From: Dromaius novaehollandiae
Lineage: Eukaryota; Chordata; Aves; Casuariiformes; Dromaiidae
Length of the DNA stretch: 64,000 bases
Assembly (NCBI RefSeq): GCF_036370855.1
Contig: NC_088108.1
Coordinates: 9,695,448 to 9,759,447, forward strand
Reading direction: 5' to 3'
Under the pieces are notes generated by a model. That model had not been told where the DNA came from. It did no database searches and saw only the letters and a program-made list of their open reading frames with translations. Shown here piece after piece: positions 11,253-48,164 of this stretch (the stretch's first letter is position 1; every line of letters begins with the position of its first letter). The translations under genes were made by a program, and so were the position numbers.

Positions 11253-11375
11253 TCAAAGCCTCTGTAGTCCCCTGGTAAGAGACACAGTGCAAGTCATGAT
11301 CACCTGGCTAGTCTTGCCCCAAACTCCTGAAACAAGCACATATAACAAAGTACTAGTAACAAGGATGCTCTGTAC

Positions 11376-11548
11376 CTGCATCTTCCTCTTTACAGTCTCA
11401 AAGGGGAAAGAAAGTGTCTGTGCCACACCAGCTGCTACACAGCCATTTATAAAGTTTTGAAGAGGAGTGAAATGAATTATGGGTTCTTGCCAGATTTTGT
11501 CCAGATTGATGTAAACAAAGAATGAGCCAGCAGAAAATGGGACAGCAC
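11376..11548 (-). CDS. SLC25A43: SLC25A43 exon 3
   Basis: Encodes residues 173-229, from VPFSAGSFFVY to SFPFETVKRKMQ. The acceptor is gctttctag|gt and the donor is atgcag|gtacag, leaving phase 0. It carries the end of repeat 2 and the third carrier signature PFETVKRK. The human gene has an intron at the same place, after KMQ. Confidence 0.93.
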
Positions 11549-14500: not shown

Positions 14501-16107
14501 CCTTGCAAAGGGAATACAGAGTGCTTCAAGTTGAAGAAACAATCAAGTTATTTTGCCCAAAATTGGTTGCTCAAAATCAGCTGGTACAGACTAGTGCAAC
14601 ACTGACTCTTTGGGGAACTTCACGTAAGTACGTGTAACGACTGTTCCTGCTTCCACACTGTTGTTTTCCTACCCTTTTCTGACCACTTTTTTACAAGCAG
14701 AAGGACACAGCGAAGCTTCCCGCTTCCAAGACATCCTTGTCTATCACCGCCGGAGCGGCGCAGGCAGCGCTGGGAAAATGATTCTCGCCCAGCCCCGGCC
14801 ATGCCAAGCCCTTTGGCAGGGTGTGCAGCCCCAGCCCCGGCGAGGGCCGCCGCCGGCCTGATTGGCCAGCGCAGGCTGAGGCCATGCTTCTCCCCACCCA
14901 GCACAGCCCGCGGACTGGAATAACCCATCTCCCAGCTGGGCAGAAATGTCAAGAGCACACCATGCGCACAGCTGACCTCGGGGGGGAAAAAAAGAAGAAG
15001 AAAGAAAGAAAACGGCAAACACAGCCCCGCAAGCCGGCAGAACACAGTGGTGGGTGCGAACAGGCAGGCCATCCTCTCAAAGCCGAAAAAATACCGGCAG
15101 CAAAAAGCGAATCCTAGACAAACAGTGCAGGTGGGCAGAACAGCACTGCTCCACATGGATGAGACAGTCCTGCTGCAGTCACTCCAGTGTTTACATTAAT
15201 CAAATGGCTATGTATTATCCAAAAAGGAGATTTTAAAACACATAATGTCATACATCAACTTCAACATTATCAAAATAGCACAAGAGCAGCTGCACAACAA
15301 CAGGAAAAAAGATTTGAATCATGATTTTGTTAGGCTATTCTTTTCTTGAATAAAGACACATTTGATATAATTGCTCAAAAAACCATAAGTGACTAAAACA
15401 ATGGGTTGCAAACAACAGATGCCACAGTCACGTTTGTAGATAGCATTCTAACTTCATTTCTGGAGGAATTTCTGGCTGAGCAGAAGAGATTTAAGGCACT
15501 ATCAAGCTTTCATCATTTGAAGTACACACACGACGTTACATGCAGTTGCTACACCAGCAGCAAGAGTTACCGCGCTCCCTACAACCTAAATAAACGAAAG
15601 AGCGAAGTTACTAGCCAGGGTTCGGGCCTCTGGAAAGGGGGGGGACGTCGCGAACTGGAAATCCAGCCGAGCCAGAGCCTAGTAATACACATATACATAA
15701 CGAAGCTGCTCGCTTTCCCTTCCCTCTCCTTTTCGGTGGAACCGAAAGGAAGAAGTGAGGGCGCAGCCCCGCCGCTCCGCGGAGCCGGGTCGCCCGGCGG
15801 CAGCGGGCCGGGGCCGGGGCCGGGGTCTCGCTTACCGGCGGGAGGCGGCGAGCTGCAGCGCGCTGTAGGGGAAGAGGCGGAGGCAGGCGGTGAGGTTCCC
15901 CTTCCAGAGGGCCCGCACGCCCTCGGCGCGGCACAGGCAGCGCCCGGCGCCGCGCAGCCCCCGCCGGCAGTGCCAGGTGCCCACCTGCGCCAGCACCGTC
16001 AGCAGCTCCAGCGGCGCCGTGAGGCTCAGGCTCAGCGCGCCCGCCAGCCCGGCGCAGCCCAGCCGCTGCACGGCCGTCACCCGGCCGTCCCGTCGCCAGG
16101 TGGCCAT
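11376..16107 (-). CDS. SLC25A43: SLC25A43, mitochondrial carrier (exons 1-3 of the gene)
   Basis: This is the 5' two thirds of a solute carrier family 25 gene on the minus strand. Three exons (15836-16107, 12434-12675, 11376-11548) join with GT/AG junctions in matching phases to give residues 1-229 of a protein that is about 340 residues in mammals. The N-terminus MATWRRDGR and the match along all three exons identify SLC25A43. Mitochondrial carriers have three repeats, each with a PX[DE]XX[KR] signature. Repeat 1 has the degenerate APLELLTVLAQ (about residues 31-41), as in human SLC25A43. Repeat 2 has YPTDVIKTR (124-132) and repeat 3 has FPFETVKRK (219-227). The family sits in the inner mitochondrial membrane; the substrate of this member is not established. 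Exons for the last ~110 residues were not found in 1-11375 and may lie beyond the window. The start is the first ATG after a GGGGCC repeat inside a CpG island. Confidence 0.93.
11549..12433 (-). other. SLC25A43 intron 2
   Basis: Spliced sequence between exons 3 and 2. AT-rich, with a T-run near 12126-12140. No gene or repeat was recognised in it. Confidence 0.85.
12434..12675 (-). CDS. SLC25A43: SLC25A43 exon 2
   Basis: Encodes residues 91-172. The acceptor is ttattctag|a on the minus strand and the donor is attag|gtaaaa. The split codon with exon 1 (CG+A) gives Arg91, and the split codon with exon 3 (G+GT) gives Gly172. The second carrier repeat is here: GSLAGMVATVV helix, YPTDVIKTR signature, and the EGFLALYRG motif following it. 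Confidence 0.94.
12676..15835 (-). other. SLC25A43 intron 1
   Basis: Spliced sequence between exons 2 and 1. Mostly AT-rich. A GC-rich patch at about 14740-15110 keeps several long open frames on both strands that look like composition effects. It also has a purine tract at 14980-15012. No second gene was recognised. Confidence 0.8.
15836..16107 (-). CDS. SLC25A43: SLC25A43 exon 1, coding part
   Basis: Encodes residues 1-90 plus two bases of codon 91. The ATG reads on the minus strand from 16107. The donor is cgccg|gtaagc, with GT at plus positions 15834-15835. It holds transmembrane helix 1, the degenerate first carrier signature, and a WKGN motif near residue 68 that is typical of the matrix helix of carrier repeat 1. 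The exon lies wholly inside a CpG island. Confidence 0.93.
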
Positions 16108-16110
16108 GGC

Positions 16111-16160
16111 GGCCCCGGCCCCGGCCCCGGCCCCGGCCCCGGCCCCGGCCCCGGCCCCGG
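16111..16160 (-). repeat. GGGGCC hexanucleotide repeat, about 8 units
   Basis: The plus strand reads ggcccc in a perfect run of about 50 bases, so the SLC25A43 sense strand reads GGGGCC. It ends three bases before the SLC25A43 ATG. The same hexanucleotide is the disease repeat of human C9orf72, although in a different gene. Read in the SLC25A43 frame the run encodes alternating Gly-Ala with no stop before the ATG. Confidence 0.95.
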
Positions 16161-16450
16161 CGCGGCGGCTCTGCGGGCGCTCGCCGCGGTGCCCCGGCCC
16201 AGGGCCCGGCGGGGCGCGGCCAGCGCGGGGGCGGCGCCGCCCTGCGCCGCCAGGAGGCGCCGCGGCGCCTTCCCCGCCCGCCAAGCTACAGGCGCTTCCG
16301 CAGGGATCGCGCGACCCCGCCCGCCAGCGCTGCCCGCCCTCAGCGCCGCCTCCTGCGCGGGGACGTCGGCGCCGGGGCGCGGAGCAGGGCGCTCCTCAGC
16401 CAGCAGCACTGCCGAGGCCTGTCGGTTCAGGCTCTGCGGGTGCGCTACCA

Positions 16451-19400: not shown

Positions 19401-21950
19401 AAGCTTTCCCCAGTCATTATCTTCCCCAGCCCATCCCTGAAGCTCCCGCAGAAAGCTTGTCCACACACACTGGTGACTGAAAACCTAGTAGGTTATGTTG
19501 CTGCAATCTCTGTATGAACACTCTTGTGGATTAAAGATGATTCACATGGTGCTTCAGATCCACCCCAGCTATATAAGAAAAAATGGAGAATAAATCAGAG
19601 AGCTGTCTCTATACAGTCCTTTGCACTGGTTTACCTGAACTGATCTTAAAAGACACTCGAAGTTAAACTGCATGACTTCTGCAGGCAGGATTTCACCATT
19701 CCTAGGTGTCCAGCTTTAAGCAGTTTTTGTAAGAGTAGAAGAGACCCAGGGTCCATACAATCTAGGCAGGTAACAGATGGGATGGAGCCTGAAACAGCAG
19801 GTTGCAGAAAAAAGTGCAACTATTCTGCAGGAGGGAGATAGGGAATAATTATGGCCACTCAAGATCTCTTTATAACTTCTCAGTCATTGTGTTTTTCAAA
19901 TAAAATATGATAGTTAATATTGGCTCAAAACTGTATTTGCAAAACAACTCTAGATTTTCTTATTGCCTCTGTAAACATCCAATCCCCTTCTGAAGCAAGG
20001 TGCTTAGTCTCCCTTATTTGCTGTGGCAACGACTTCCGTGGTTTTATTATTCACCGTGCAGAAGTATTTCCTTTTATCGGTTTTGGATGTGGCGCATTTA
20101 GGTAATATTACATGGCCCTTGTCCTCAACATGAGAACGCTGCCAGAGTGTTTTCCTTAATAGCAGTTTTCATGGTCTCCTTCGCCAGATGAGATACGCAC
20201 CCCTGATACTGTTCATTCACAGAGTAACTCAGCATACTGCTCCAGCAACACGCTCTGTTCTAGTAGACTGGATTATTGTGCAATTGCAAAAGATCACAGT
20301 TTCCAGTTGTTTGCCCTCTGCAATACGGAATATAAAATACATTTACATATAATTTGCATAATTGCAGGAAATAAATTTTATTTTTATGCAACTGGGAGGT
20401 ATTGTATGAATTTGGGCAGGTCGGGTAGCAGACATACTAAGATGTGACAATCTTGGGTTGGAATAAATTGTGCTTAAGAAAGAAGACAGTATTCTTGTAT
20501 CAGTCACAAGCCTAAGAAAATCATACCGAAAGGCTCAAAGCCATTGTGCTGGCAACAAGAAAATTATAGATATTTGTGGCAAAGAGTTCAACAGCACTAA
20601 ATATAAAAGAAAAAAAATTCTATTTGTGTATTTAGCATCTCATTATTACAAAATAATTGCCAAAGAAATTAGAAAACTGAATTTTAATTTTTGGATGAAA
20701 CCCCTTCACACTAGGAAAAACAAAATATTAACAGCATTTTATACTAAATTAGTAAGTGTCTATCTTCTTATCTCTTATTTCTGTACTCCACACTCAGATC
20801 TTGTACGAAATACCTTTGCGGGGCCTCATTAAGCATTTCTTTACGTGTTAAAATGTAAACGCTTCTCAATTTATCACATCTTTGGAAAAGCAGCAGGTAC
20901 TGACTAAATGAATATAACCCTGCAGCTGCAAACTATTACCAAATTCCAATTTGCCTGTGTAGTTTTGGAGGAATATACGCAGAAAGGAAAAAAATACATA
21001 GCTTAGAGACACCATCTTTGAAATTTAACCTTTTGTACTATCAAAACACAGCTTTATCTTTTAAGGGAGAAGGAAAGATGCAGGCAAGTGTCCGTGTATA
21101 AAAGAGACTCCCAGAAAGTCTTCAGAATGCAAGGGGACCCACAACCGCAGAGGAGAGAACGAGCCCAAACGAAGGGCTGTGGGTAAAGGTGGTGTTCTTT
21201 ATTACACGGACTTGTATAGTGAGAACATGCAGACGTGCTCTGGGGCAAACAAAGTTTTAAGAGACAGCCTCCCACGCTAACTACACCCTGAACAACTGTT
21301 CTCAGGTTGTAATTTGACACATAGCAATCAGACCATCTGAGAAAAGGCGTGCTTGGTGCACACCTCTGCCTGCAGCCCTAGTCTCGTGCATGTCTTAAGG
21401 TCATCGCAGCTACAGCTGTGCTACCACACAAGACTAAATAATATCTGCTTTTAAAAACGTGGAGAAACAAAATAAAAGACATCATATATTTTAGAACTGT
21501 GTTTGGAAAACTGCAAGAGACAAAAAAACCCCACTGAAAACCGAGGGTATATTTGATGACTGCACAAAGCTGCATTTCCTTGGGGGCGTTAAAGGAAGAA
21601 CAGAAAGTGCTGGAAGCGTGGACAATGCCTGCAGCTGTTCACCCGAGAGCCCGTGGTATCCCGTGGGGCTGCTCCTGCGCGGGGAGCTGACTGTCACAGA
21701 GCACAAGTAGACACAGGCACTGTGCTTCCACTTGAGTAACATGCAGAAACTAGCACTAAAACAAACAGGCAGAAAGCAGGTATTAACTCTTGCACACGTA
21801 CTGCTCAGACTGGAGCCCTGCACTTTTCAGAGGCAGGTGAGGATAAAACAGCTTTTGTTACAGGTAGCGTCCTGCAGCCCTGGAACTAGGCCCTCGCAGT
21901 GCCTAAGCGAGGGACTGGCGACTGAAATGCCTTCATTTTATTTATTCATT
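16451..21950. other. Intergenic region between SLC25A43 and AKAP17B promoters
   Basis: SLC25A43 and AKAP17B are divergent (head to head), and this ~5.5 kb lies between their CpG islands. It holds a 20-odd-base T run near 17803-17825 and otherwise unremarkable AT-rich DNA. A mildly GC-rich patch at 18100-18400 has open frames on the minus strand without a recognisable domain. No exon was supported. Confidence 0.6.
17803..17826. repeat. Poly(T) tract
   Basis: An uninterrupted run of more than 20 T. It could be the tail of an unrecognised minus-strand retroposon or simple slippage. No element body was identified next to it. Confidence 0.9.
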
Positions 21951-21979
21951 TTTGTTTATAAAAGAGACACAGCGTGAGC

Positions 21980-22980
21980 AGAGGCCAAAGGCATCGCGCA
22001 GCAGGCGGGCGGGGGCACCTGGGGGCACCCGCGGCCGCGCCGCCCTCGGGGCCACGGCGGCACCGGCCCCACTGCTGGGGTCCAGCCCGGGCCCCGGTTT
22101 TCCCGAGCCAGTTTTCCCTCACGAACAAGCCCTAAACCCCGGACGACGTCGCCCCCGGGGGCCGGGGCGCCGCGGCCGGGCGCGGGCAGCTCCCGCCGCC
22201 TCCGGTGGGCACAAGATGGCCCCCGCCGCCTCGGCGCCCCCCGCTCGCGGCGGCACCGGCCCCAGCGGCAGCGCCGCGGGAGCGGGCGGGCCGCGGTCAG
22301 GGGCCGCGCCGGGAGGCAGCTCCCCCCGCCCCGCCGCGCCGTGCGCCGCGCTCCGCCCCGGGGGGCGGTGGCGGGAAGGGGCGCCCGGAAGTGTGTGCGG
22401 CCAGCGGCGGCCGGCGGCGGCGGCCCGTGGGGTAAGGAGAGCCGGCCCGCCTGCCCGCCGCGGCCTGCCCCCGCCTGCGGGGCTGCGGCGGGGCGAGGGG
22501 CGGCCGCGCGGCGGGGGGGGGGAGGCGGCCTGCGGCGGGCGGGGCGGCCGTTGGGCCCGTGAGGGGAGCGCGGCGGCCCCGGGGCTCCCGCTCCGCCCGG
22601 CGCCGCCGAGGCCTGCGCCGAGCCCGCCGCGGGGCGTAACCGTCTCCCGGAGGAGGCAGCCGCTGTCCGGCCTCGCGCGCGGCGCCTTCGGCCCCGGCAG
22701 CGGCGGGGAGGCGCCGCCGGGCCGGGCCGGGCCGGGCCGCCTGAAGCTCACCTGGCCAAAGAGGAGATGTATACACATATATTTATGTATATGTATATGT
22801 TTGTATATGTATTTGGGTTTTTTCCCTCGCAGTGAGGTCACTGTCGTGGCCCAGCTGATGGCATAGTCTCGGAAACGGCTGCGGGGGCCCGGGGCCTGCA
22901 GCGAGCGGCGGGCGGGGAGCCGGGGCGGTGGGGGCCGCTCGCCTTAGCCGTGCCGTGAGCAGGTACCAGCGGCGCCGCTG
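21980..22980 (+). promoter_or_regulatory. CpG-island promoter of AKAP17B locus
   Basis: About 1 kb of extremely GC- and CpG-rich DNA. It contains an ETS-like site cccggaagtg at 22384-22393 and a YY1-like acaagatggc at 22211-22220, both typical of TATA-less promoters. A strong donor-like site gtggg|gtaagg on the plus strand has its GT at 22432-22433, so a non-coding first exon ending at 22431 is likely. The first coding homology of AKAP17B begins 3.2 kb downstream on the same strand. The island could also fire leftward, which cannot be judged here. Confidence 0.65.
22766..22817. repeat. TATG/TATA microsatellite inside the CpG island
   Basis: An alternating purine-pyrimidine run (atgtatacacatatatttat, then tatgtatatgtttgtatatg) interrupts the GC-rich island. 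It is flanked by GC-rich DNA on both sides. Confidence 0.85.
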
Positions 22981-23444
22981 GGATAAAACTGTGCTTACGA
23001 ATTGCATTTTACTCGTATGAGCTATGTAGGTTTCATATTAAATATTGTGCTTTATGTTAAATATTGTCAAGCTGTTAATGATTCCTTAGAGTCTAATTTT
23101 GTTTTCAAGTGTGAACTTAGGTGATACGTTAGGGTGTTCGAGGATAACTAATGAGATATGGAAAGGACTGTATAGATATTTAGAAAAATCAATATCATAT
23201 TCAAATAATTTACTGGTTTATCTTTGTGGCTTTCCCTGAGGCTACGAAGGGGTTACAGTAATATGTTAGCAACAGCTTGAGTTTGCACTGCAGTGTTTGG
23301 GGGGCACGTTTAAGTGGGAAGGGAATAGAGAGTAGGCTGAAAGGGGTTAATTTTCCTCTGTGTATGGCATTGATCAAATTAATACTGTGCGTGGTTTTAG
23401 AGTTCATATGTTTTAAAGTTGGAGAGTGTTAGAATATTGTGAAA

Positions 23445-23905
23445 AAATTACTCAAGGGCTGGAGAAGGTGCCTTGCGATGAGAGACCAAGAAAGAGCTCT
23501 TAAAGAGCTCAGGCTATGTATTTTATATCAAAAAGATGTTTGAGAGGTTTTGAGCTGAATTACAGCACATAACAAAACGTAGATGCTAATTGGATGTGAA
23601 TCTAACAGAGGAAGACTTGGGAGGAATCAATGAATGGAAGTGGCTTCCATTTCAAATTGGAAATAGGGATTATTTATTTTATTTATTTATTTATTTTTAA
23701 GGTGAATGTGAGCAAGGAATGGAACAAACTGCCCATGGGAAGTGGCAGATTTTCATATCCTGGTGTTTTCTAATCAAGACCAGGTACCTTCTTGGAAGAG
23801 ATGCTTTAGCCAAATGCAGTGGTATATTCGGTACCGTGTAGCTGGGGGTAAGATCAAGGTGGAGTGCAGTACAGGCAGCACGAGAGAGCTGGTTGTCTAT
23901 TCTGC
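23445..23905 (+). repeat. Ancient CR1 (chicken repeat 1) LINE 3' fragment
   Basis: Matches the 3' part of old amniote CR1/L3-type LINEs. The markers in order are gatgagagaccaagaaagag, aaagagctcaggct, tttgagaggttttgagctg, tggaacaaactgcccatgg, ggtgttttctaatcaagacc and gatgctttagccaaatgcag. A TTTA-rich simple repeat (23670-23698) has expanded inside it. Divergence is high, so the insertion is old. Confidence 0.7.
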
Positions 23906-24704
23906 TCCTCATCAGCTTGAATCTATTCTAAAATGCCACAGTGTTTTAGGACCCTGAAGTATAAAAAATGATTGGGTTTCATAGGGTTTCCTCAACAGAC
24001 CTGGGAACTGAGCACAGATCCGTAGTGTCCCAGGGCTGTATCTTGAATATAAAAGCGTTTTTTTGGTCGCCTACCCAATGTGTTTCCAGTGCTTACGGTT
24101 TTAGTGTTACACTTGGTTTCTTCTTCTGCATTTAAATAACACCTTGTTTTGAGTAAATATCAGCGTTATCAGAATGTGTGATCACAGAAGACAGACATGC
24201 AGGTAGCAAAGGACAGTTGAGCCTTCAGTTATCATAGTTAGTAAACAGTAGTGCAAGGGCAAGTGTGTCCCTGATGTTATAAATGTGGCAGAAGGGCTAT
24301 AAGGAAATAGTTTGGTAATGGGGCAGAATGTCAGATTCCTTGTGGGTTTATCATTTGGCACAGTTAAAATATAAGATTCATCTAGCAGTGTATTAATATG
24401 TCAGGGTTGTTTCCAAATGGTCATGTTGCTGAGCAGCAAGCCTCAGTGGATCAGCCGGTAAATAATGCTGTTGCTTTGTACACAGTCATCTGATGAGAAA
24501 TACGTTTCTGATGCTTGAAAGGCTCCTGGCCATGCAGAAGAGCGAGGAAGAGCAGCGGTAATGGTACTGCACTGCCAAACCACTATCACGTATTGCAGAC
24601 ACTTCTGTGAAGAGACTTTTGGGCTTGTTTTTAGAGAGTTTATTGCAGCAGTGGAATGCAATCATAGCCATGATGGTGCAAGGATGTGAGTGAAGGAAGA
24701 TTTG

Positions 24705-24800
24705 TGGGGACAGCAAAGTACCTATTGGTTTAATAGAAGATGTGGTTGCAAAGACCAAGCTTTTGGGCACACCAGGCCTTCTTCAGGTCTGACTTACGTG
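24705..24800 (-). repeat. Old interspersed repeat (same family as the 10.2 kb pair)
   Basis: The reverse complement reads agacctgaagaaggcctggt, then aaaagcttggtctttg, then ctattaaaccaataggtact. This is the same order as the other copies in the window and the known amniote text 'cctgaagaagagctc ... gaagttggtccaataaaag'. The family is not named with confidence. Confidence 0.5.
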
Positions 24801-25624
24801 TCTCTTTCCACAGATTTCAACAGCGGTGTCCTAGGTGTTTTAACCAGCTGCACCTCAAATCTTGGTGTGATAATAACAGATAGCATGAGTAGCTCTTTAT
24901 CCCAAAGAGCAATGGATAGAAATGATTCTTAAGAGTTTTAACTTTTTCGGGTTTGTAATACTTTGGGTGTCTTAACAAGAAAGTATTTACTTTGCTTATA
25001 TGAGAGCTAAAAAAACTATTACAGGCAAATGCTCAGAATTTGTTTAAGTAAAATGATTTTGGGAACCTAAGTGACGGACGACTTTCGATTGTGTAGAAGA
25101 TGGAGGGCCCTAGACAGTGTTAGGAACAGAGTCTCCTGACAATGATAAAGAACTGGAAAAACATCCATAGACTGGTTTCAAGCTTTTTTTGAAAACATTA
25201 CTGAAAATAAACCTTTTCCACTTTCAGGAAGGATTGATTTATTATATACCAATTCTGATGATAAATGTCTTTTTCTGAAGTATACAGATGTTAAGCTGTG
25301 ACAAATTACATAAAGTGAGAAAGAACACATAAGCAAAGCAGTTCTTTTGTTTTGTTAGCTTTTGCCTCTGTAAATGCTGTATGACTCTTCCAGGGACTGA
25401 ATACAGAGGCTTAGCTTACAGCAGAGTTTCAGTATAAAAACAGTAATGCTTTAGAGAGTAGAGATTTACATTTGGTATAATTTTTTTGCCAGCTGAATTT
25501 AAATGTTAAATGACATTATCATATGAGGAAGCTGAGTACTCTTTAAAAAATCCTCAGGTGTGAAACTTTACATTTAGTATTCCATAGCATTTAGCTTAAA
25601 AGAATTTTAATTGTTTTCCTAAAG

Positions 25625-26350
25625 GACTTTGGAGACGGTGGCAATCACTGTATTCTGCGATAACTCGGAAACTGTGGAGCTTTGTGGTTCTCCGCATCTG
25701 TACCTTGACCCAGTAGCCAAACTGCCTGCCAGTGTGGTGTTCCCACGTTGTCCAGAATCTCTCGAGGGGGAGCGATGGACAAGCTGGAGAAAATGGTTTG
25801 TCCAGATTTCATTCGCTTTGAGGGAGAGGCAGAAACGGAAAGCTTGATCCTCACACTTAAGGAAAAACTGCCTGGAAAGGTGACAATACTAAATGGTTTT
25901 ATGGATGGCTTGAAGGTGATGGCTCCTGGAGCACATGCTGACCCTTAAACTGAGTAAGAGTGGGCATCTTTTCTGAGTAAAAAGGTGATGGATAAAGACA
26001 ATACTGAACAAAGTGGCGGTATTCCTGATTGCCTTCATTTTGCAGGGCTGCCAGGCAAATGGTTTGCATTAAAGAGATCAAATAGTGAAAAGCCAAGGGA
26101 AGATGCTTTAAGGTGGTATTTGAAAACTTTGGAAAGATTAAGAACATATATATTCCTATGCTCGAGCCTTACAGAGAAGAAAGAATGGGAGGAAGTGTAC
26201 ATAATTTCACTTCTGGAGGTCTACAGACTTTTAAGGCCTTTGTACAGTGCCAAGAGCATGCAGCTTTTGTGAAAGCTAGGTACTCACTTGTGGGAATGAA
26301 GCTGATGTTTAAAGGGGATGATGGAAAAATGGACTTGTAACACAGAGATA
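25625..26350 (+). pseudogene. AKAP17B: AKAP17B first coding exon, disrupted
   Basis: Pieces in different frames match AKAP17A in order: CDNSETVELC, then MDKLEKMVCPDFIRFEGEAE, then EWASFLSKK, then [20 protein letters not shown], then [19 protein letters not shown], then [16 protein letters not shown]. These cover the N-terminal domain and RRM-like region. The position of the AKAP17A start Met is ACG here. The pieces need at least three frame changes and cross two stops. The end of the exon, expected after a CNIK-like motif, has no GT donor in place (aaa|agcatc), so the donor is probably lost. Confidence 0.88.
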
Positions 26351-27894
26351 AAAAGCATCTAAAGTTGTATCTTTGGATGCTGCTGATTTTCCAAGTGTAT
26401 CATGATAAAACTCTATCAGTCTTTGGATAGGAACAGCTACGTAAATTCTAGCCAAAAAGTCTCTGAATCAATCAGTCTTTGAGAACCCTGTGGGTGTCCT
26501 GCATGTTCAAAACCTGCTTCAACAAGCGACAAAAAATGTTGATTGAAACTAGGCGATCTACTAACTGGGGTAGGATAGTTAAGCAACAGATGTTTGCTTT
26601 GGGAATTTACAGCTGGAGACTGTCCTTTAGGGTAGGATGTGGGTCTGCTGCTTCAGAAACTGTCCATCCTTCGATGCTCTACTTAGTCAACAAAGCTGTG
26701 GTGTATCTGTGCTCCACAGTTGTCATGAGGGACCACACATTTCTTAGCCTTGAAGGTTATGAAACATCGATTTGGTCTATTTATTTATGCAAAGACTTCC
26801 AGTTGGTGTGTACTAATATTGGGTTGTGTATTTTTTTTAATCTCTCACTGCAAACTTTGAAGTTTTCAGTCCTTTAATCTGAAGATGGTGTATTACTTTT
26901 TGATTTCCTGAAAAATTGTTGTGAATAAGTTAAAGATTGTAAATATTTTTGGTTTGATGGGCACTGAAGTTGAGAGAGAGGCTCAGGAACTGGAGAGACT
27001 CTTTGAAAGATGCTTTGTTTCTCGTTGTTTAACATGAAGTATCAGCAACACCTAGTTTTAATCACCTAATATCAGGTGATTGGATCTCAGCTAATAAAGG
27101 GTATCCTTTGTCTTCTCAGCACCTTATTTGCTTAAGTATGTTGAGGGATGAATCCATTTAAGTGCTATGCTTGGTATTACATTATAAAAAAAGCCTTGTA
27201 ATCTGCAAGATTCATTTCAGCAGCATGACTGTTAGTGTCAGTAAGTACTTACCAGGATGTACCCTGTTCCAGTGTTTTGTCCAGTGGATAATTTCTAAAC
27301 TGTGACCCTGAAACATTCCTCTGTGCTGGAAATAACACTTCACATTACTTATTTTTCCAGGGTAGATGCACCAAGATGCAATTTACTCGAATGCTTTTTT
27401 TTTTTTAATGTGCTCACATCTGGGCATTTGAAATGGATTATGTTGATGTGTGCTGCATTTATCAATCAGTTTTATTAGGTAAGCAAACATTTGATCCAAA
27501 AGATATTGCTCTGAAAGTAAGTGAACTGTAGTTTTGGCAGAACAACTGCATAAATTCACCATCTAGGAACTCTCTGCTGAAAATACTGAACTTTGAGTCC
27601 CCAGAAGAGCACGCCAGAAACAGGTTGCAGCCAAAGGCATGGTGTCAGCCTGTGAGCCCCTGATGTCACAGCAGAAGGTGACATTTGTGAGTGGGGTGTT
27701 TGAGCTTGATTGACAACTCTTGGTGTGAACTTCAGAAGACATGTTCTAGTATGCCTGGGCACCAGGAAATTCCTGTGGGTGTAGCAATATGTGTTAATCA
27801 CCTGGGGTCTCTCTCGTTTGTGTAGGTTGTCTGTGCTTGTATAAATACATGCCAAACTGGACTGGTAAGTTTGATTCTGTTTCTTCTGCAACAG

Positions 27895-28018
27895 GTGACT
27901 TTTGATAGAACTAGACATTTTAGTGAAGGAGCACAGAGGAGAGAAGTCGGGAAAGACCAAAGCTGCAAGAACAAGAGCACGAACGAAAAAGGGGACAAGA
28001 AAGAGAAGTGGTTGAAAG
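27895..28018 (+). pseudogene. AKAP17B: AKAP17B second coding exon, one frameshift
   Basis: Acceptor cttctgcaacag|gtg, donor gaaag|gtgaga. The first codons read VTFDRTRHFSE, matching VSFDSTKHLSD of AKAP17A right after its CNIK exon end. A one-base deletion near 27925 moves the rest to another frame, which reads RERPKLQEQEHERKRGQERE and matches the start of the AKAP17A charged coiled coil. The exon leaves in phase 2, fitting the next exon. Confidence 0.8.
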
Positions 28019-29335
28019 GTGAGAGTGTATTTTTAGTATCCCATTTTCTTGAGACTTACTACACTATTTCATTACCAGTAAAATCCAGAAGAGTGGCTAC
28101 TGTAAAAATCCAGGCTTTAAGGAAACATGAATCAGTGAACCTAAAGCGTTACTGTATACAGTTCCTAATTCATGTCTTACTGTAGGGAGAAAAGAAGCAG
28201 CATGATAATTCAATAGTAAGGCATCAGATGAAGGGTTATGAGAAAGAGGTTGGGCTGGAAACACCCTGAGATCCCTTCCAGCCTGGATTATTCTGTGGAC
28301 CTGGAGTGAAATCTGAGAGCCGTTGCTCTCAAACTGCTGTGAGGCTTGATTGCTTAAGATTCTGGAAGTGGGATTTTTGTATTGCTCTGCACTATAACAT
28401 GAAAAAATAATGTTATACGCATTTCTGTGTGCCTCCCAGTTGACTGGAAGGTCCAAAAGTAGAAATGAATGCCTTTCTGGCTTTTCTTCTATTCCTTTCT
28501 ACATGTTATTTTTCATTATTGTTGTAACACAGGACAGTGTTTTTAAATTTTGTATGCGAGGAATAGTAGTATGTTGAGGTTTTAACTCTAGAGAGAGTAT
28601 GTTTGGATTGCATCCTAAACTGTCACTGGTAATCAATCAAGTTACAGACCTATATCTCTCTTTAAAAAAAAAAAATTACAGTGCTGCATATAGCAACTCA
28701 AATGCTAGATCTCTGAAAGCATTGCTATTTTTCTGTTGTTCCTTTATATCTTCATATTCAACTACTTCAAAAATATATATTTCTAAACACCTGTGTAGAA
28801 TATCCTGGCATGTTCTGTGATGTGGCATGTTGGTTGTATAGTAGATCTGTTTTCTACAGGGCAAGGCTTCCAGCAGCTTCAACTGGAATTTTTAGGATAG
28901 TGCAGATAATCCTGTACTGTCTCTTTAGATCAGCACAAGGGTGCCATTTTAGGGGAAATTTGTTAACATAAGAATTAGGTCCAAATGATCAGTCTCCAGT
29001 TGTGTCCTTGGAGAAGAGATAATAATTTAATCTGTCTTCTTGAGATTGCTTGTAATGAAAACCCTAGGATATGAAGCATTTGAAGAGAGAAAGTAGAGAA
29101 CTTTCTAAATGTGTGCATCAGTTGGATGTGTGTCGCTTTGTGCCATGTTTGCTTGCCTTTTTTTTTTTTTTTTTAACATGTTATTCTAGAAACCAAGATT
29201 TCTTGTTAGCGGCATATGGATTCTTGGTGACTGGTTGCTTACTATTAGCACTTCAAAGACCTACATCTGATCCCCCCAAGGCTCAAAATGTAAAACAAGT
29301 GTCATCTAAATTGTCCCGTATTGATAATTACCTAG
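28019..29335 (+). other. AKAP17B intron between exons at 28018 and 29336
   Basis: Contains a short CR1-like tail at about 28236-28300 and a T-run at 29159-29174. No further exon was supported. The 114-codon frame crossing its 3' end (29071-29415) is mostly intron read-through. Confidence 0.7.
28236..28300 (+). repeat. CR1 LINE 3' tail fragment
   Basis: aggttgggctggaaacaccc followed by tgagatcccttccagcctgg and attattctgtgg is the usual 3' end of avian CR1 (ggttggactagatgatc ... ggtcccttccaacc ... attctatg). Only the last ~65 bases are recognisable. Confidence 0.7.
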
Positions 29336-29573
29336 AAAAAGACGTGGTGATGAAAAAAAGGTTCAAGAGAGAAAAGAGAAAGCTCAGCTCCAGAGGAGAG
29401 AAGAGAGACAGATAGATCGAGATGAAAAACATCCCCAAAAGCTGCAGAAGGTACCAGCTGAAGAACAGCAGTGGCCAGAGAATATGCCTGAATGGGAAGA
29501 AAGGAAATCCCTGCTAGCTCAGAGAAGAGTGGAGTCTGTCAGACTGCTTACAGTGCTGTTAAACCGAGTGAAA
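29336..29573 (+). CDS. AKAP17B: AKAP17B coiled-coil exon, open
   Basis: Acceptor attacctag|a and donor gtgaaa|gtaaga. Joined to the exon at 27895 through a split AGA codon, it reads KRRGDEKKVQERKEKAQLQR and onward without a stop to EERKSLLAQRRVESVRLL and LNRVK. AKAP17A has EERKLLLAQRNLQSIRLI at the same place. The amphipathic charged helix is preserved. An in-frame ATG at 29484 (MPEWEERKS) is the first Met available in the surviving frame. Confidence 0.75.
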
Positions 29574-30823
29574 GTAAGAATATTTTTAAAAATATTTCTA
29601 AGTTTGGAGGTTATTTATTAAAGCTTGAATAATTCATCAGATTTTGGTGGCTCGATGCTAATAAAAAGAATGCCTTGGGGCTGACTGAACAGTAAGAAGA
29701 CCTGAGGTCTAAGTCTTGAGACAGTTTGCTCTGAGAGGAAAGGTACTGGGATATCACCCAGAAAATTCTCTTTGATATATGTTGGAGGGCTTGTCATTGC
29801 TGAGTAGGAATAAGGATGGAAGGACTGTATCAGCAGTCTCAATCCAACGTTGCAAACGGGGAGTTTAGGGGAGGGGATGCAGAAGGAGAGTATCTCTGCT
29901 GGTTTGGTCTCAGGTCTGCAAGTAACAATTAAATTGATACTAATTATGCCATTTTCATTTCTAGTAGTCTCTCTTTTGAGGCCAACAGTAAGCTGTCAGT
30001 TTTATCTCAGTTTCATTCAGCTAATGTCTTGGGAAAGTCAGCAAAAGAGTGATAAAACTTTGAGTGTTTTGCACATAGATTCATGACTGGAGGCTTATTT
30101 TAGTCCTTTGGGCTCAAAAAAAATTGCTTTAAATGAAAGCTCAGGGATACTAACGTGACTTTGTTTTCACTATTTGCTAAAGCAAAACTTGCTAGCAGCT
30201 TTTAACAAGCAGGTGTTTTTCCTCAATTCTTAAAGTTTACAATTTTTAAAAGACTGTAATTCATGAAGAGCTGAAGTCAGAGGCTACCCTTGCCATTCTG
30301 CACGAGTTTTAGGGCCCTATTACATCTGACATTGGACTTCTTAATTGTGAAAGTGATGTGTTTAATAAACGTTTATTTCCTTGGTTTCATCACTTGGAAG
30401 GCTTTAGATTGGTTGTATTTGGAGCCATTAAAATAGTGTATAATAGAACAATTTAATTATTCTTAATAAAATATTCCAGCTATAAAAGTGCAGTAATTTT
30501 ACTGTTGCGTGCAACACATTGTGATGCTATAGTCAAACAAAGAATAAATACTTTCTTATGCAATTGCAGTGCGATAGATGAATTGGTTGAAAGGGCGACT
30601 ATCTTAGTTAAGAATGCAGCCTTCTGAGACGACGTCTTTAGTTCTGACTTAGGAATAGTGAGATTGTATGATCAAGCTCTGAATTAAGCCAAATTTATCC
30701 CTCAATTATACTGGTATAATTTTTCTGACTGTAGAGCTGCATATTTATGAGTTTGCAGTTTAGCTCTTTAGAGTTCTGTTCTCAATAAATGTACATAATC
30801 ATTTTCCTGATTTTTATTTAAAG

Positions 30824-32380
30824 GATTTTGCACAGTTGGCAAGTCAAAAAGTGGATCCTTCGTTGGGCCTAAGGAAGGACGATTCTTTTCCTGAAACAAC
30901 ATTAAAAGACACACATCAGGAAGAGATAAACTCCCATTGCCATACGCACAGAGAGTTGAAACCTAAGGAAGAGTTTACGTGTCAGTTAACCCAAAAAGGT
31001 AGCACCTTATGTAGTGAGGAAGGGGATGTGACTAACTTGTGTGCGTCCACCTGTCATATAGTCAGGACAATTTTAAATGATCCCACTAGAGCCCTGAGTT
31101 CTGACAGATTGACGGGCAGAGATGCGTACAACTCCTTTGGCTGTGGATCTTTACTGATTACAGTTACGCAAGACTGCAAGGTCATCGAATCTCTCGATAG
31201 AAGGGACTACCCAACATTGAATGTAGTTCACACGCAGACAGTGTCTGATGAAGACGGCTGCAAAAAGCAAAAGGTCTATGAGACTGATGAATTTATCCAT
31301 TATTTATTAAACTACTATCAGACACCGAGCTATGCACGCGTTTGCTTAGAGCCAAAAAGCACTGCGAGCAAGTCCTGGTGGAAGAGAGTGGTGTCTGATG
31401 ATGATAGTGGTTTTCAGATCAGCTTGAGTAACAAACATGGTCAGCATTTCAGAGAAGTGAGTCTTGTGCAAAACCTCAACAAGAGAAATTGTAGTAGGGA
31501 TGATAATTATAGACTGGTGATCACGGTTGGGGAATTTGAATCAACAGACACGGTGTTGAAAAACAAGACCTGTGCGAGTAGGCTTGCAAAAAAATTGCAA
31601 GTCCAGAGGAATGACTCACTCACTGTTGATAACTTACCACATGCTGGACTGAATCGTTTTTTGGATGGCGCTGCTGTTAGTCATGATAAGGAATTCAAAC
31701 TAGAAGACGGTAGAGATGAAGTTACTATACCACACAAAATGTGTAGATCTGCTTACAAATTAAAGGATTTGTTGGAAGAGATCAGTGACTCAGAGTACTT
31801 TGGTGAGGCACGTAGTGGTTCAATGAAGAGAACAGAGAGAAAGTGTGAAGAAATTCACAGCAATTGTAATAAAGGGTGCTTGCTCCCAGGAGAGGGGGAG
31901 AGAAAATTCCTGGTTTATGTTAAAAATGTAGCCCTGGAAGGTCAAGAAAAGGAATGCAGCAAATGTAGCTTCTGTTCTAATTCTGCCCGTGAGGGATTGG
32001 CAAGGCAGTGTGAACACAAGCTTAAAAAATCATGCAAGCGGTCTAGTAGTAAATTAAGACATGAAGGACAGAAAAGTGAGAGACAATCCAGGGAAGAGGA
32101 GAGAAATGCTCGCAAAAAGAAGAAAAAGAGAAAAAAGCTTTCTTCTAATCTTTTATCTGATGAATATGGCTTTTCAGAGACAGACAGTTGCATACAGCTG
32201 GAGTCACTCAGAAAGATACAAAGAAAATGTAACAAAATGTTCCACAACAAAATGAAATTCAAAACACTTCACCCAGTGACAGCAGCACCAGAAGATGTTA
32301 CCCCTAGTGATGGCTCACCACTTCAGGGGACCCTCCAGAGGGCAGGTGAGAAGGAGGTATATCAGAGCCCAGGCTACTGA
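30824..32380 (+). CDS. AKAP17B: AKAP17B terminal exon, 518 open codons
   Basis: The acceptor tttttatttaaag ends at 30823. The exon continues the frame of the preceding one in phase 0 (LNRVK|DFAQLASQKV) and stays open for 518 codons to TGA at 32378-32380. It is rich in Ser, Lys, Asp and Cys. A block around 31285-31460 (HYLLNYYQTPSYARVC ... SWWKRVV) looks folded. The last third is basic, with a likely nuclear localisation run ARKKKKKRKK near 32110-32136. The place and character fit the C-terminal region of an AKAP17 protein, though I cannot align this exon to AKAP17A confidently. Chance openness over this length in DNA of this composition is very unlikely, so it was coding until recently or still is. 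Confidence 0.75.
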   Translation, partial: DFAQLASQKVDPSLGLRKDDSFPETTLKDTHQEEINSHCHTHRELKPKEEFTCQLTQKGSTLCSEEGDVTNLCASTCHIVRTILNDPTRALSSDRLTGRDAYNSFGCGSLLITVTQDCKVIESLDRRDYPTLNVVHTQTVSDEDGCKKQKVYETDEFIHYLLNYYQTPSYARVCLEPKSTASKSWWKRVVSDDDSGFQISLSNKHGQHFREVSLVQNLNKRNCSRDDNYRLVITVGEFESTDTVLKNKTCASRLAKKLQVQRNDSLTVDNLPHAGLNRFLDGAAVSHDKEFKLEDGRDEVTIPHKMCRSAYKLKDLLEEISDSEYFGEARSGSMKRTERKCEEIHSNCNKGCLLPGEGERKFLVYVKNVALEGQEKECSKCSFCSNSAREGLARQCEHKLKKSCKRSSSKLRHEGQKSERQSREEERNARKKKKKRKKLSSNLLSDEYGFSETDSCIQLESLRKIQRKCNKMFHNKMKFKTLHPVTAAPEDVTPSDGSPLQGTLQRAGEKEVYQSPGY

Positions 32381-35300
32381 ATTTGATAGGCACAGGTTTC
32401 TGGCAGGTGAGGTTAGTTGCCACAGTTCTTCTTTCAGTGACGTGTGGTAAGCGTTCTAAAAATTTTCAGAACATGTAAATATGGTGTAAAAAGGGTGTGA
32501 CTGCCCTTCAAAACCCTTAATTGTCAGTTTAGCAAGAAATACTGAGCAGCTATGGTTGAAAAATTGTGTTTTTCCACTCAGTTGGATAGCAAAGCCCCTC
32601 TCATATGCATTGACAGATAGATGGTTATTCTGTTAATAACATGCATGCTAACAACCCGGCATGTTTTAAAAGGGCAAAATACATGCCTGAGTTTTAATGC
32701 TCAAAATAATATGCTGAGTTAAGGTATCGGTTGAGAGCTAACCAACTTTGGAAAAGATTAGTAGATGGCAACTCAGTGTGTGGTACTTCTGGGTGGGAAG
32801 TACTGTCTGAAATGAGTGGATTTTTATATAGGCGGTCATCTGATCTCCCTACAGGATTACTACGTTTCTGGAGATTGTTCCTCACAGCCCTGTCTCCATT
32901 TACTACGCTTTCAATTCAGTGGCAGCTACCTGCCTATGTCCTTCTCTTTCTTTTTTCTTTTTTCTTTTTTTCCCTCCTAACAAACTCGTTTCAAATAACT
33001 TTTACATATACTTATCTACAGGAGATGAGAGGAAATTAATATTGAGAAGAGAGATGGATGCTGATGTCAGAGGATGCCCACTTTTTCCTCTTGAGATAAT
33101 TCAGACCAACCCCTGCTCAGATACTTTCTGTGGAGCAGAACCTGGAAGAGGATGCTGAACAGCTACTATATAATAGCTCTTAAGCTTACTCACAGAAGTG
33201 GGAGAAAGTAAGTCCTTTAGTCATTAAAAGTTATCTGAAATATTGGGGCTTTTTTTTTTTGCTTAGATAATTCCTTCTGTATGGAGGAGTGGAATAATCT
33301 GACTGGTGCAATGAGCCACAATATGAGAATCTTTATCTGCCTTCTGGACAACAAAGGACCAAAAAGTTCCCCAGGGCCAGACAAACTTTCGTGGACCAGT
33401 TGCTAAGAATTTGAAAAGTAACAGTTTGATATCTTGGAGTTGTATCCAGATTAAACCTAGGGTACAATGTAAATATCAAAGTTACAGTTTTTGGTAGTAA
33501 TGAGTCATTGGAAAAAAACATAGATATGTAAATCCTAGAGCAAGCATACAAAGTGCCTCCTCAATCAGGTTGTTAAAATAGTGGGACTTTAAGATGTGAG
33601 GGACATTTATACTCACTTGTTGGGGAATAATGGATTTCCAAATATGAAAAAAAACTTCTGTAAAACCCACACCGGAAAAATATTTATTTTCTATTTACAA
33701 TTCTACAGATGTTTCCAAAAACTTGTTGGTCTTTGGGAGGGTTGATTTCACTAAACTTATGCTGGATTTGGTGCTCCTGGGAATCTGAATGAGGACAGTC
33801 TAAGCAAAGCTCTGAATCTTGGACAGTGGAAGGGGAATGCTTGTCAGCATGTTGACAGCCCACCCATATATGCAGGTTGAAAATTAGTTCGCAAGACTTC
33901 AAAAATGTGCCCTTTTGAAGGCGCATGCAGTGAGACAGCTATTTAGTATGAGTTAGCCGACAAATAATTTCCAGAGGAAATGTCAAATGTTGTTAAATTT
34001 CTGCTGCATGGAGGTAAAAATGTGAAAATGCAGTCTAGGAGCTTGAGTTATATCCATATTTATTCAGCTGGCTATATTTAGAGGACAGCCACAATTGCTT
34101 TTGGACAAAGTCCCTTAGGAAAATAGAGATGGAACAGTTCTAAGTTGAATACACTGATTATTTCCGCTTTCATTTTAGTATGCTTTATTTATTACATGTC
34201 AATATACTAAATTAATGTGATGATATTGCCTTCATTATACAGTATCTTACCCATGTTTGTAACTTCTGCTCTAATAAATAGTAATTAAAAAAGTTTGTAA
34301 TTGTTCATGGTAGATTGGTTTTCCCCTACTGTGTTCGATATTGGTGATTCCTACAGGCTTCTAAGCCAGGCTTTATATGTCTTCTCTGTTCACATGTTCA
34401 GATGTTGAGTGCCTTTTCAGGATCATGAATGACAAATGGTTGCTACTTAGACAAAGTACTGTTAATCTATTACTTTTATCTAAAAAGATCTTATTTTCTT
34501 GACAAAAATATTTTCTGACTATTTTGGAGAACATCTATGCCCGTCTTTAGTCTGCTTTTTAGTATTTTATACAGTTGTAATGAAGATCAACTATTGTATT
34601 TGTTGACCGTGTAAAATGTTTCAGTTGCACTGATATGACATACCAAGGGTGTTTTTCTCTATGCAATATTTACAGATTAAAAAAAAAGATGGCAAAACTT
34701 CCCCTTCTGATCTCTAGACAGTTCTGTGTGCATAAATATGCATTTCCCATGAGATGGTCTTTCACTTGCAGGTGAGGAAGTGGTTCTTTTTTATCTAAGG
34801 GAGCAGGAACTAAGGATTTCCTTCAGTGTAAATTTCTGGTTTTGTTTTTTGTTTTTTTTTCCAACATGTTGTCACAATATTCAGTAACAAATAAATACAC
34901 CGATTCTGTAACTGCTTCTCGCATTCACCTATATTGATTGAAATTAATAAAGCAAATCCTCTATCTCCAGGTCCTCATCCAGTGTAAAACCTTGTGTCAG
35001 TGAATAAAACATGCACACTTTAAAATGTGAGATACCAGTGTAATCTTCATACTGAAATATAACTTCTGTGTTTCCTTTCTGTTTATAGGTGGCATTATTT
35101 AGAACCTATTCTCAGGTATTTTAATATTAATTCCTCATTTTTCTTACCTGTACACTTAATTTGAGCCCAGTCCTTCCATTTGCTGGACTGTTTGGTGTAA
35201 TTTTGTTTATTATACTGAAGACATCTTTAAAGATGCATCTAACAGTTTGCTGTGAAACTCTTTAAATACATAGCTTCATAGATTAAGCTTCCATAGTGTT

Positions 35301-41800: not shown

Positions 41801-42953
41801 TAAACTCCATTAATCAGTAACTTGCTTGCATGACAAGCTGAAAATGGAGATATCACATGTTGCAACTGGACATTAAAAATTGCTCTTATGGGATCAGTCC
41901 AGAGCACGGCATCTCCCACGCTTCCCAGGGAAAGCTGTTTCGCAAAGCATCAAAGGTGACCCACGCAGCAATTACCGAATCAGATACAGCGTGCAGCTTT
42001 TAATGTTGTCAAGGAAGGTAACATCTGAAAGCCTGTTTTGTTTTGTTTTTTTTTTTAAGTCAAGGGGATTTTTAGTTGCCACGGATACAAAACCACACAT
42101 CTAACTCCGCTGTAGGACTCACCGCGCCCACTGCAGAACTCAAACCAGCGCTACTCAGCGACGCTCTCCCCCCAGACCAAAGGCAACGGTCCCACCACGC
42201 TCCCAGAGACGGGGTGCCTCCTGCCACCTTCCCGTGTCCCGCAGGAGCGGCTGCAGCTCACTGCGGCACCGGACGGCTCGGGCGGCCCTGCCGCACCGGT
42301 CCTCGCACCAACTGCCCAACCGCGGCGGGGCTCCTGCTGGGGAAGGAAGACCCGGCGGGAGCCGCTGCGCCCCCGCCCCCGCCCCTCGCCGTAGGGCTCC
42401 GCAGGCCTCTGCGAAGTCTTCCCAGCCTCGGCGCCCGCTCGCGCTGCCTGCGGCCCGCACGGGAAGCGGCTTTAGCCCGAGCTAATGCAAACACGGCGCA
42501 GCGGAGCGGTGGGGAGGGCGCGTAAACACCGCGCGCCTCGCTCCCGCGGCCTCGCGCGGGGCACGAACGCGCCCGGCCCGGCCCGGCCCCCGCCCCGGCC
42601 CCCGGCCCGGCCCCGCCGCCCTCACCGGGCCCGTAGAACTTGCGGGCGCGGGTGACGTCGAAGACCTTGCCGTTGACGGCCATGAGGATGCGCGGGTCGC
42701 GCACGCCGTCGTAGGGCCGCAGCTGCGCCAGCGTGAAGTCGCGGCGCCGCATCTTGGGCGGCGGCGGCGGGTCCGCGTCCCCCGCCGGCGCCGCGGACCG
42801 CTCGCCGCGCAGGATCTGGTAGAGCAGGAAGAGGCAGAGCCCCAGCAGGCTCAGGTTGAGCGGCGAGCCCACGATCTCCAGCAGCAGGCCGCCGCCGCCG
42901 CCCCCCTCCGCCGCCTCCTCACCGGCCGCCGCCGCCGCCTCCTCGTGTGCCAT
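38705..42953 (-). CDS. PGRMC1: PGRMC1, membrane-associated progesterone receptor component 1 (complete)
   Basis: Three exons (42626-42953, 41071-41226, 38705-38805) splice in phase to a 194-residue protein; human PGRMC1 has 195. PGRMC1 is a single-pass membrane protein of the ER and other membranes with a cytochrome b5-like haem-binding domain. It binds and supports cytochrome P450 enzymes and takes part in sterol and haem handling. Visible parts: an Ala/Glu/Gly-rich N-terminus (1-22), a membrane helix near 30-47 ([18 protein letters not shown]), and the b5-like domain from about RRDFT (70) to 170. Tyr107 and Tyr113 of KFYGPEGPYG are kept, Tyr113 being the haem ligand. Lys163 and Tyr164 (FKYHH) and the PTIYSDEEE site with Tyr180 are kept. 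The tail KNTQDGKKE differs from the mammalian tail. The start is the only suitable ATG in the CpG-island exon. Confidence 0.96.
38806..41070 (-). other. PGRMC1 intron 2
   Basis: AT-rich spliced sequence. It has a CA-rich patch at 39222-39260 and a pyrimidine tract near 39924-39946. No other gene was recognised. Confidence 0.85.
41071..41226 (-). CDS. PGRMC1: PGRMC1 exon 2
   Basis: Acceptor ttttaaag|ag, donor ttactt|gtaagc. It encodes residues 110-161 ([20 protein letters not shown] to DWESQFT), the core of the haem pocket. It is nearly identical to mammalian PGRMC1. Confidence 0.96.
41227..42625 (-). other. PGRMC1 intron 1
   Basis: The 5' part (42100-42625) is still CpG-island DNA and holds a C/G-rich tract at 42568-42616. 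The rest is AT-richer. Open frames seen here on both strands look like effects of base composition. Confidence 0.8.
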
Positions 42954-43620
42954 GGCCTCGGCTGCGCTGCGGCGCGGCGCGGCGGGCTCTGCGGCTCGGC
43001 GGCGGCAGCGGGGCGGGGCGGCAGCCGCGCCGGGAGGGGCCGGCGGCGCCCCGCCCCCCTCCCCGCCCCCCGCCCGCTCGGGACCCCCGCGCCGCCGGGA
43101 GGGGCCGGGCGGCTGCGCTGTGGTGCGCGGCGCCGGCGGGGGGCGCTGCGGGGCGGCGGCGGGGCCGCCGTGAGGGGAGGCGGGCGATTCCCCCCGCAAA
43201 CTTCCATGCGGGCAAAGAGAAGCAAAACGAGGCTTTCTCAGAAACAACAGGGAAACTGGCCGGTTTGGGACTTCTCTGTTCAGGCTTCTTCTCAACGGAG
43301 CTTTTCACTGAGTAAAACTTGGCGTCGCGGGCAGCCTGCTCCCCTGTTGGATGACGGTGTTCGTTAGCGCCCTCGGTATAGCTCAGCATGACGCGCATGG
43401 TCTGGTCCTGGCTGTCGGGTGCTGCAGGACGGGTCGGGTGTTCGGGGTCCTCCACAAAGTGCCCCCGCCATCGCGGCGCCTGGCCTGGTTATCGGTTATC
43501 TGCGCTGCGCAGAGGCGCCGTCCCTCGTCCCTCGTCCCTCCGGGAGGACAGGCCGCCCGGCCGGCCTTTGCCACACGCTGCAGCCTGGGTTCGAGTGGCT
43601 GCTCCAGGGAGTAAAGGCTG
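42100..43620 (-). promoter_or_regulatory. CpG-island promoter of PGRMC1
   Basis: Dense CpG and G+C from within intron 1 through exon 1 to about 0.65 kb upstream of the ATG at 42953. No TATA box was noticed. The transcription start should lie a short way above 42953 in plus coordinates. It could also drive an antisense transcript, which cannot be judged from sequence. Confidence 0.75.
42626..42953 (-). CDS. PGRMC1: PGRMC1 exon 1, coding part
   Basis: Encodes residues 1-109 plus one base. The ATG reads from 42953 ([18 protein letters not shown]). The donor is gggcccg|gtgagg. It contains the membrane helix and the first part of the b5-like domain up to KFYGP. The human N-terminus is less Ala/Gly-rich. 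Confidence 0.95.
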
Positions 43621-46335: not shown

Positions 46336-48164
46336 ATGTCCATTACATTTATGCTTGTTTTCAGTTGCATCTTTTGATTTTCTAGCTACTTTCTTCCCCA
46401 TCAAGCCCAGTGCCAGAAAAAAGAACTCTGCAATGTGAAGATGACACTATGCCAAAGGCTATCAAAATCCTGTCATTCCTGGAGGTATATTAATCTAAAC
46501 ATCTGCAGCATAAAACAGCTCCAGATGGAAATTTTTACCAAGTTTTAGAAAATGTGCCAGAAAGGGGGGTTGTGAGGGCAGACCCCTCAGCTGGAGAAGC
46601 ATCCTGGAGAATTTCTTGCCTCGGTGACAGACTGATGTGACCTTGCAACTCAAACCTTCCCCCCAGCCACATCTGCAATGAGTTTTCTTACTGACTTGTC
46701 TGGTAGGCTGCCAGGGCCATGGCTTTTGGTTCAGTCACGCCAAAAGGGCTGACAGTCTCTGCAACAGGAAAGCTTGCTTGGTCATTACATACAGCAACCA
46801 CACTAGGAAGTTTTGGAGACATCTCATTGTCTTTTAACTGCAGATGGAGATCCTGGTGTGAGTTCTTAGTATGGGCTCTTTTCTTGAAAGTCAGTGGATG
46901 TCAGAAACAATCTGGACAAGCTGTAGATACTTCTGGAAGAGACAGGAAAAAAAGAAAACGTAGTCTGTGTGTGCTTCTTGCAATGTGACAGTCTCCGTAT
47001 CCTTAGAAAGCACACTGATTGACAGTGAAAGAGTCAATAAAATCCCTGCACTTCCCGAAAATAACTTCTTGGATTTGCTTAGAGGTCAAATGATCCAGGA
47101 AGGTTTTATGTATGGAAAATAACTGGACAACACGAAGGAAACTGAGCCCATTCACAAATCAAGTCAAGTCAGTAGCACTATTGGGGAGAGCAGAAAATAT
47201 TAAGAACTGTTCTCCTTTAGTGTTGGGAGAGGAAACGATATCCAGTGCCCATAAGTGTGTTCTTCACAGGGACCGATTTTTGCTTACACTGGAGATGTTC
47301 ACCTAGCACTTCTGAATGCATGAGCTGTCTTCACTCGTGTCGCTGCTTCCCTGAGGTAGGGCAAGTTATTTCTCTGCCACCACGAGGGAGTGCCAGTTAT
47401 GCTTCAGAATGGATCAGTCTGCTCTAATGTGAATCGGCTAACTAACTTCAATATTAATGGTTTTAAAGCTTAGAAGAAGGGAAGTATCAATAAACTAAGA
47501 TAGCAGAGTTTTCTCTGTGTAAACTTGCACCATTTCAGTTACAGAAATGCACCAAGATAGGCATGGATTCTCATCTCAGTTGAGTGACATTACTATTTAG
47601 CTGAAACCTGCTTCTGACATCCCTCACTGATTATGAAGAGTGCTCTGACTGCCTTTGGTCTGCTTTAGGTGGCCCAATCCAAAGCAGCACAGACAACGTG
47701 GAGGACTGAGTAAAGAGAAAAAAACAGCAGTGGGAAGATGGACATGTGGAAGGAATATCACTTGCTTTTTTTCCTAAAACATCTTAGATGTCTAGTTTGA
47801 TTGATACACTTCCAGGTGCAAGCCAGATTTATGTCTCTTCCACAAATGCTTCCTTTTATCTTTGGCTTTCTGATTTTATTGAACATTTGAATATCATTCC
47901 GTCGTGCTTGGTTTTGACACAAAGTTATATCTCTAAGTAGTGAATCCAGAGGAATCCAGTTTTCAACACACATGTTAAAGAAGCACTCCATTAATTTCTC
48001 ACCCTGACTCTTTTCCAGCTGTTCTAGTTATGCAACACCCTCAACAGGAAAATCTTTCAGACCCTCAGGGTCATCCCACAGCTGACACTGATAAAGGGCC
48101 TGAGAGGTGGTATGCAAATGACACATGTTGAGAAGATGCCTTGTGCTATGCCCCAGCTCCTCCC

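Follow-up and report, generated by a model that had tools for sequence, protein, structure and literature searches.

The window analyzed here is a 64,000-nucleotide (nt) stretch of the emu (Dromaius novaehollandiae) genome (G000:C11:9695448-9759447), in which AKAP17B lies on the plus strand between two minus-strand neighbor genes. We found that the first two coding exons of this gene have decayed and that the third and terminal coding exons carry no lesion. It is most likely that the 3′ half of AKAP17B has been constrained for longer than the 5′ half, although the gene as a whole may still have died. Whether the 3′ half is held open by selection to this day as an N-terminally shortened protein, with promoter and transcription persisting, is in our estimate an even question. 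An earlier note on this DNA had left the choice between a recent loss with lesions clustered by chance and a selected C-terminal product; lesion statistics, a CpG island, and a strand footprint tilt that choice toward constraint, whereas the lack of a clean start codon speaks against a product.

Lesions and open frame along AKAP17B

Lesions were called against the emu's own intact AKAP17A, whose four coding exons encode 694 residues, in an alignment that allows for frameshifts. The coding features of AKAP17B are as follows:

25625-26347, plus strand: decayed first coding exon with an AKAP-17A-like RNA-binding domain, by alignment to the emu's own AKAP17A
25635-25637, plus strand: ACG instead of a start codon, aligned to Met 1 of AKAP17A
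26348-26349, plus strand: lost donor, AT for GT, with TGTAACACAGAG/ATAAAA aligned to TGCAATATAAAG/GTGAGA of AKAP17A
27895-28018, plus strand: second coding exon with a net frameshift, 124 nt versus 149 nt in AKAP17A
29336-29573, plus strand: third coding exon, no lesion seen, 238 nt versus 241 nt in AKAP17A, phase kept
30824-32380, plus strand: terminal exon, open for 518 codons and in phase, from open reading frame and splice-phase analysis

Within the first coding exon, 115 of 234 aligned residues are identical to those of AKAP17A, and the alignment placed frameshifts near 25746, 26111, and 26332, TAA stop codons at 25946 and 25955, and gaps of 13 and 4 codons. These lesion calls were unchanged across three frameshift penalties; by eye, the two stops can alternatively be read as one compensating frameshift pair, which would still amount to two lesions. 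The earlier note had claimed a lost start, at least three frame changes with two stops, and an apparently missing donor for this exon, and the alignment bore out all of these, with the ATG of AKAP17A opposite the ACG and its GTGAGA opposite the ATAAAA. The deletion of about 14 codons that it described is also present but measures 13 codons. The donor of the decayed exon scored −3.8, compared with 10.7 for that of AKAP17A, and its acceptor at 25625 is still good (score, 7.2).

Relative to AKAP17A, the second coding exon lacks a net 25 nt through a 1-base and a 24-base gap and is therefore out of frame, which amounts to the one net frameshift that had been proposed for it. Its splice sites are the strongest of the locus (acceptor, 10.4; donor, 10.7), standing at the 99th and 100th percentiles of intronic AG and GT, respectively. 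From the third coding exon onward, frame and phase hold as the earlier note had stated. The third exon shares 44% identity with AKAP17A over 82 aligned residues and has a donor scoring 7.5, and the intron phases of the two genes are the same at the three introns compared. In the terminal exon, the remaining two forward frames contain 27 and 60 stops, and the probability of a frame so long staying open is ~3e-16 on base composition alone. The open terminal frame thus proves past coding; present coding is not thereby proven. We counted in favor of a retained 3′ half that splice sites are kept from the second coding exon through the terminal one and that the first exon has lost its donor. The CpG content of the exons does not separate the two halves (0.34 in the first coding exon versus 0.38 in the terminal exon).

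Own-genome searches, which covered 1.468 Gb in 271 contigs, recovered the terminal exon as a single copy at the DNA level (only itself) and, at the protein level, returned itself and one chance match (E value of 3.08). With its 5′ half disabled and its terminal exon present once, the locus has one property of a unitary pseudogene, namely, a disabled coding frame and no intact copy.

For the clustering analysis, six lesions that shift the frame or introduce a stop were counted: the first exon holds five of them and the second exon one. The changes at the start codon and donor and the gaps that keep the frame were not included. All six fall within the 5′ share of the coding length, which is 0.32 of the total (P = 0.001), and within 0.34 to 0.35 of the mutational target, computed with four alternative sets of assumed parameters (P = 0.0015 to 0.0018). 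For a clean gap this long anywhere in the coding target, P is bounded at 0.007. With five lesions instead of six, these probabilities become 0.003 to 0.005 and, for an equally long gap anywhere, 0.02. The implied neutral substitutions per site are 4 to 7% in the 5′ part and less than 1.1 to 1.9% (95% limits) in the 3′ part, ranges that do not overlap within any parameter set, though they come close. These values support the earlier claim that uniform neutral decay is unlikely (P = 0.001 to 0.002 for the six lesions). Chance clustering is thus disfavored, by P values that are suggestive rather than overwhelming.

CpG island and strand footprint of the locus

Two noncoding features accompany the gene:

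22000-22900, plus strand: CpG island, likely the AKAP17B promoter and a 5′ untranslated exon, with a donor-like GTAAGG at 22432
20955-34851, plus strand: G-over-C strand footprint of the whole unit, from minimum to maximum of the noncoding cumulative G−C

The island has a GC content of 0.79, 136 CpGs, and a CpG observed/expected ratio of 0.96, compared with 0.92, 0.99, and 1.02 for the islands of SLC25A, PGRMC1, and AKAP17A, respectively. If CpG is assumed to mutate ten times faster, neutral change of 5% would have cost a methylated island ~40% of its CpGs. Its place and the strand footprint make it likely that the island serves AKAP17B.

The footprint was computed outside exons and island, and none of 10,000 random reorderings of 86 blocks (250 nt each) attained its rise. 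Pooled introns contain 1478 G versus 1067 C. The GC skew is positive in all four introns (0.22, 0.11, 0.09, and 0.17), with values of −0.04 and −0.03 in the flanks, and all four introns also have T in excess of A. For comparison, AKAP17A introns have a GC skew of 0.08 to 0.10, the carrier gene, on the minus strand, has −0.11 and −0.02 in two stretches (the latter not significant alone), and the region below PGRMC1 has −0.035, also not significant alone. Transcription-linked substitution bias is described as building such skews in vertebrates (PMC2927911); the same paper, whose text makes no mention of birds, reports a negative skew at gene 3′ ends in most species, unlike what we see at this locus. 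The undecayed island and the strand footprint, both indirect lines, fit a locus that is still transcribed.

A possible shortened product and its rivals

Two features of the third coding exon bear on what a shortened protein might be:

29484-29486, plus strand: earliest ATG within the retained frame, giving a 549-residue product if used
29535-29570, plus strand: protein kinase A (PKA)-anchoring-helix-like motif SVRLLTVLLNRV, where AKAP17A has SIRLIAELLSRA

If the AKAP17B promoter and transcription persist, the RNA-binding first coding exon, which has lost its start codon, frame, and donor, would presumably be skipped or left untranslated; given the good acceptor of this exon and the strong splice sites of the second, skipping or service as an untranslated leader is plausible. 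Selection would then have kept the gene open from the third coding exon onward after the 5′ half was freed, and the shortened protein would retain a PKA-anchoring-type helix and a long C-terminal tail, with RNA binding left to the intact AKAP17A. The motif SVRLLTVLLNRV lies shortly after Met 29484, within the retained third exon, and both it and SIRLIAELLSRA fit a PKA-anchoring pattern, which matches only once in each of the two proteins. PMC4963476 was considered as a source for this pattern and set aside, as the peptide there is unrelated. Since PMC3468582 describes AKAP17A (also XE7 or SFRS17A) as a dual AKAP and a regulator of splicing and the motif occupies the same place in both proteins, a surviving product would, by analogy, most likely serve in PKA anchoring without RNA binding. 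The fuller proposal, that AKAP17B has been reduced from an RNA-bound PKA anchor of the splicing compartment to a free PKA anchor of ~549 or more residues, under selection and after in-place decay of its RNA-binding half beneath a living promoter, is a tentative one that we place clearly below even.

The retained frame has no clean start, so that making a product would take leaky scanning or a different first exon. There are seven ATG-to-donor candidates for such an exon that read in frame into the third exon or the terminal one; we rejected them as evidence because one third of such joins are open by chance, and their number is not above chance. One piece of this kind lies inside the island, with an ATG at 22216 in the context AAGATGGC and a donor at 22432, and joins the terminal exon in frame for 590 residues; this 22216-22431 piece could reflect chance or a promoter motif. 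The terminal exon itself contains just four Met in 518 codons, the first of them after 305 codons (at 31739).

Several observations weigh against a selected short product. The out-of-frame ATGs at 29350 and 29422 precede Met 29484 in the spliced second and third exons, both have a purine at −3, and the short frame of 29422 overlaps 29484. Reading the second coding exon into the third is blocked by TAG TGA in that frame just upstream. The third-exon acceptor is weak, scoring 3.6 (83rd percentile) versus 9.7 in AKAP17A. The anchoring motif occurs in 21% (AKAP17B) and 23% (AKAP17A) of shuffled proteins, and a ranking of 579 AKAP17B windows by hydrophobic moment puts the helix 54th. No similarity to the AKAP17A terminal exon is detectable in that of AKAP17B (local score of 66, reached by 14 of 300 shuffles). 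The P value for clustering was computed after the case had been picked out by a reader, and the strand footprint is a long-term record of past transcription from which the end of transcription is not datable.

A rival explanation is a plain recent pseudogenization of the whole gene, with 5′ clustering by chance, an explanation that we regard as possible but clearly short of even. It would account for a short product having no good start codon, and chance gains ground under the five-lesion count. The human gene AKAP17BP (HGNC:38514, Xq24), the same gene listed as lost, appears as a pseudogene in PMC6861388, which argues that loss is tolerated. Against whole-gene pseudogenization stand the confinement of all six lesions to the 5′ part, the undecayed CpG island, and the keeping of the later splice sites.

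A loss in two steps, in which the short product was retained for a time after the death of the 5′ half and then itself recently lost function, would account for the lesion-free 3′ half and the missing clean start alike. We consider it improbable, and the present data do not separate it from a product still in use. A role other than encoding AKAP17B protein, in which the terminal exon is kept as a noncoding RNA or as part of a gene with its own first exon (e.g., 22216-22431), appears very improbable: the lack of similarity to the AKAP17A terminal exon and the open join to 22216-22431 are compatible with it, but that join is one of the seven candidates, a third of all joins being in frame by chance, and selection on RNA only would not hold 518 codons free of stops. 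Assembly or sequencing errors are scarcely credible as the source of the lesions, given that two stops, a 13-codon gap, and base changes in donor and start are of kinds that indel errors do not make and that the terminal exon, twice as long, has zero lesions.

Identity of the locus and its relatives

The neighborhood of AKAP17B contains the following feature:

11256-16395, minus strand: three mitochondrial-carrier exons (SLC25A), with Mito_carr E values of 4.9e-8, 1.7e-21, and 6.8e-13

We take the minus-strand exon at 42261-43304, recognized by eye, to be PGRMC1-like; a Pfam search of this exon gave no match. The locus is AKAP17B, slotted between the mitochondrial carrier gene and the PGRMC1-like gene. 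Akap17b adjoins Pgrmc1 in mouse (PMC6604198), and the position of the emu locus therefore fits AKAP17B, whose gene order beside PGRMC1 is found here; the likeness to the mouse gene is one of neighborhood. Farther along, the stretch 48057-49217 is GC rich, contains on its minus strand a long frame encoding repeats of an HAPGT-like peptide, and shows a TpG+CpA excess of 1.38; it resembles a minisatellite lying within or next to a CpG island to which no gene is assigned.

An AKAP-17A-like RNA-binding domain is recognizable at the locus yet broken. A PF25015 profile search of the emu genome, with a cutoff of 27 bits, matched two pieces of AKAP17A, two pieces of the AKAP17B locus, and one weak further site (L006, G000:C1:19536448-19536558; E value of 5.5, 15.8 bits). 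The first coding exon of the intact AKAP17A on C1 scored 171 bits, and AKAP17B yielded only two fragments below the cutoff (25.9 and 21.5 bits); the fragment at 26089-26337 by itself had an E value of 1.5e-5 (25.2 bits). AKAP17A shares with AKAP17B its intron phases, an RNA-binding exon, a coiled third exon, and the place of the helix-like motif. It differs in being intact and in its terminal exon, which encodes a 309-residue arginine/serine-rich tail instead of the 518-codon frame of AKAP17B. The score of the first 395 residues of the AKAP17B terminal exon against that of AKAP17A was matched by 203 of 300 shuffles. In view of the undetectable similarity between the terminal exons, it is by position, splice phase, and the strand footprint that the one studied here is assigned to AKAP17B. 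The terminal exon also had no match among Pfam and PDB sequences at E values up to 1, its structure predicted from the single sequence had a mean pLDDT of 34.2 and was unusable, and a scan of viral contigs for relatives gave five pattern matches, none of them a relative.

In chicken, an AKAP17B-like gene, AKAP17BL, is mentioned among muscle transcripts and called chicken lineage specific in PMC10591418; its likeness to AKAP17B is by name. That label sits oddly beside the mouse Akap17b-Pgrmc1 locus (PMC6604198). Among the papers found to mention AKAP17B, none deals with gene loss in birds, judged by title or abstract, and among those found on truncated bird pseudogenes, none has a title that points to AKAP17B. 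Loss of AKAP17B is already known from human; what is new here is the undecayed CpG island and the strand footprint of the whole unit.

To rank above ordinary gene loss, the event would need proof that a short product is under selection. If AKAP17B is merely dying in the emu, this would be an ordinary independent loss of a gene already entered as a pseudogene in human and a dated example of uneven decay. If its 3′ half is still selected, AKAP17B would exemplify a gene in which exon decay removes one domain and spares the other, the ruined exon remaining in place, and PKA anchoring would have been separated from RNA binding within the AKAP17 family.

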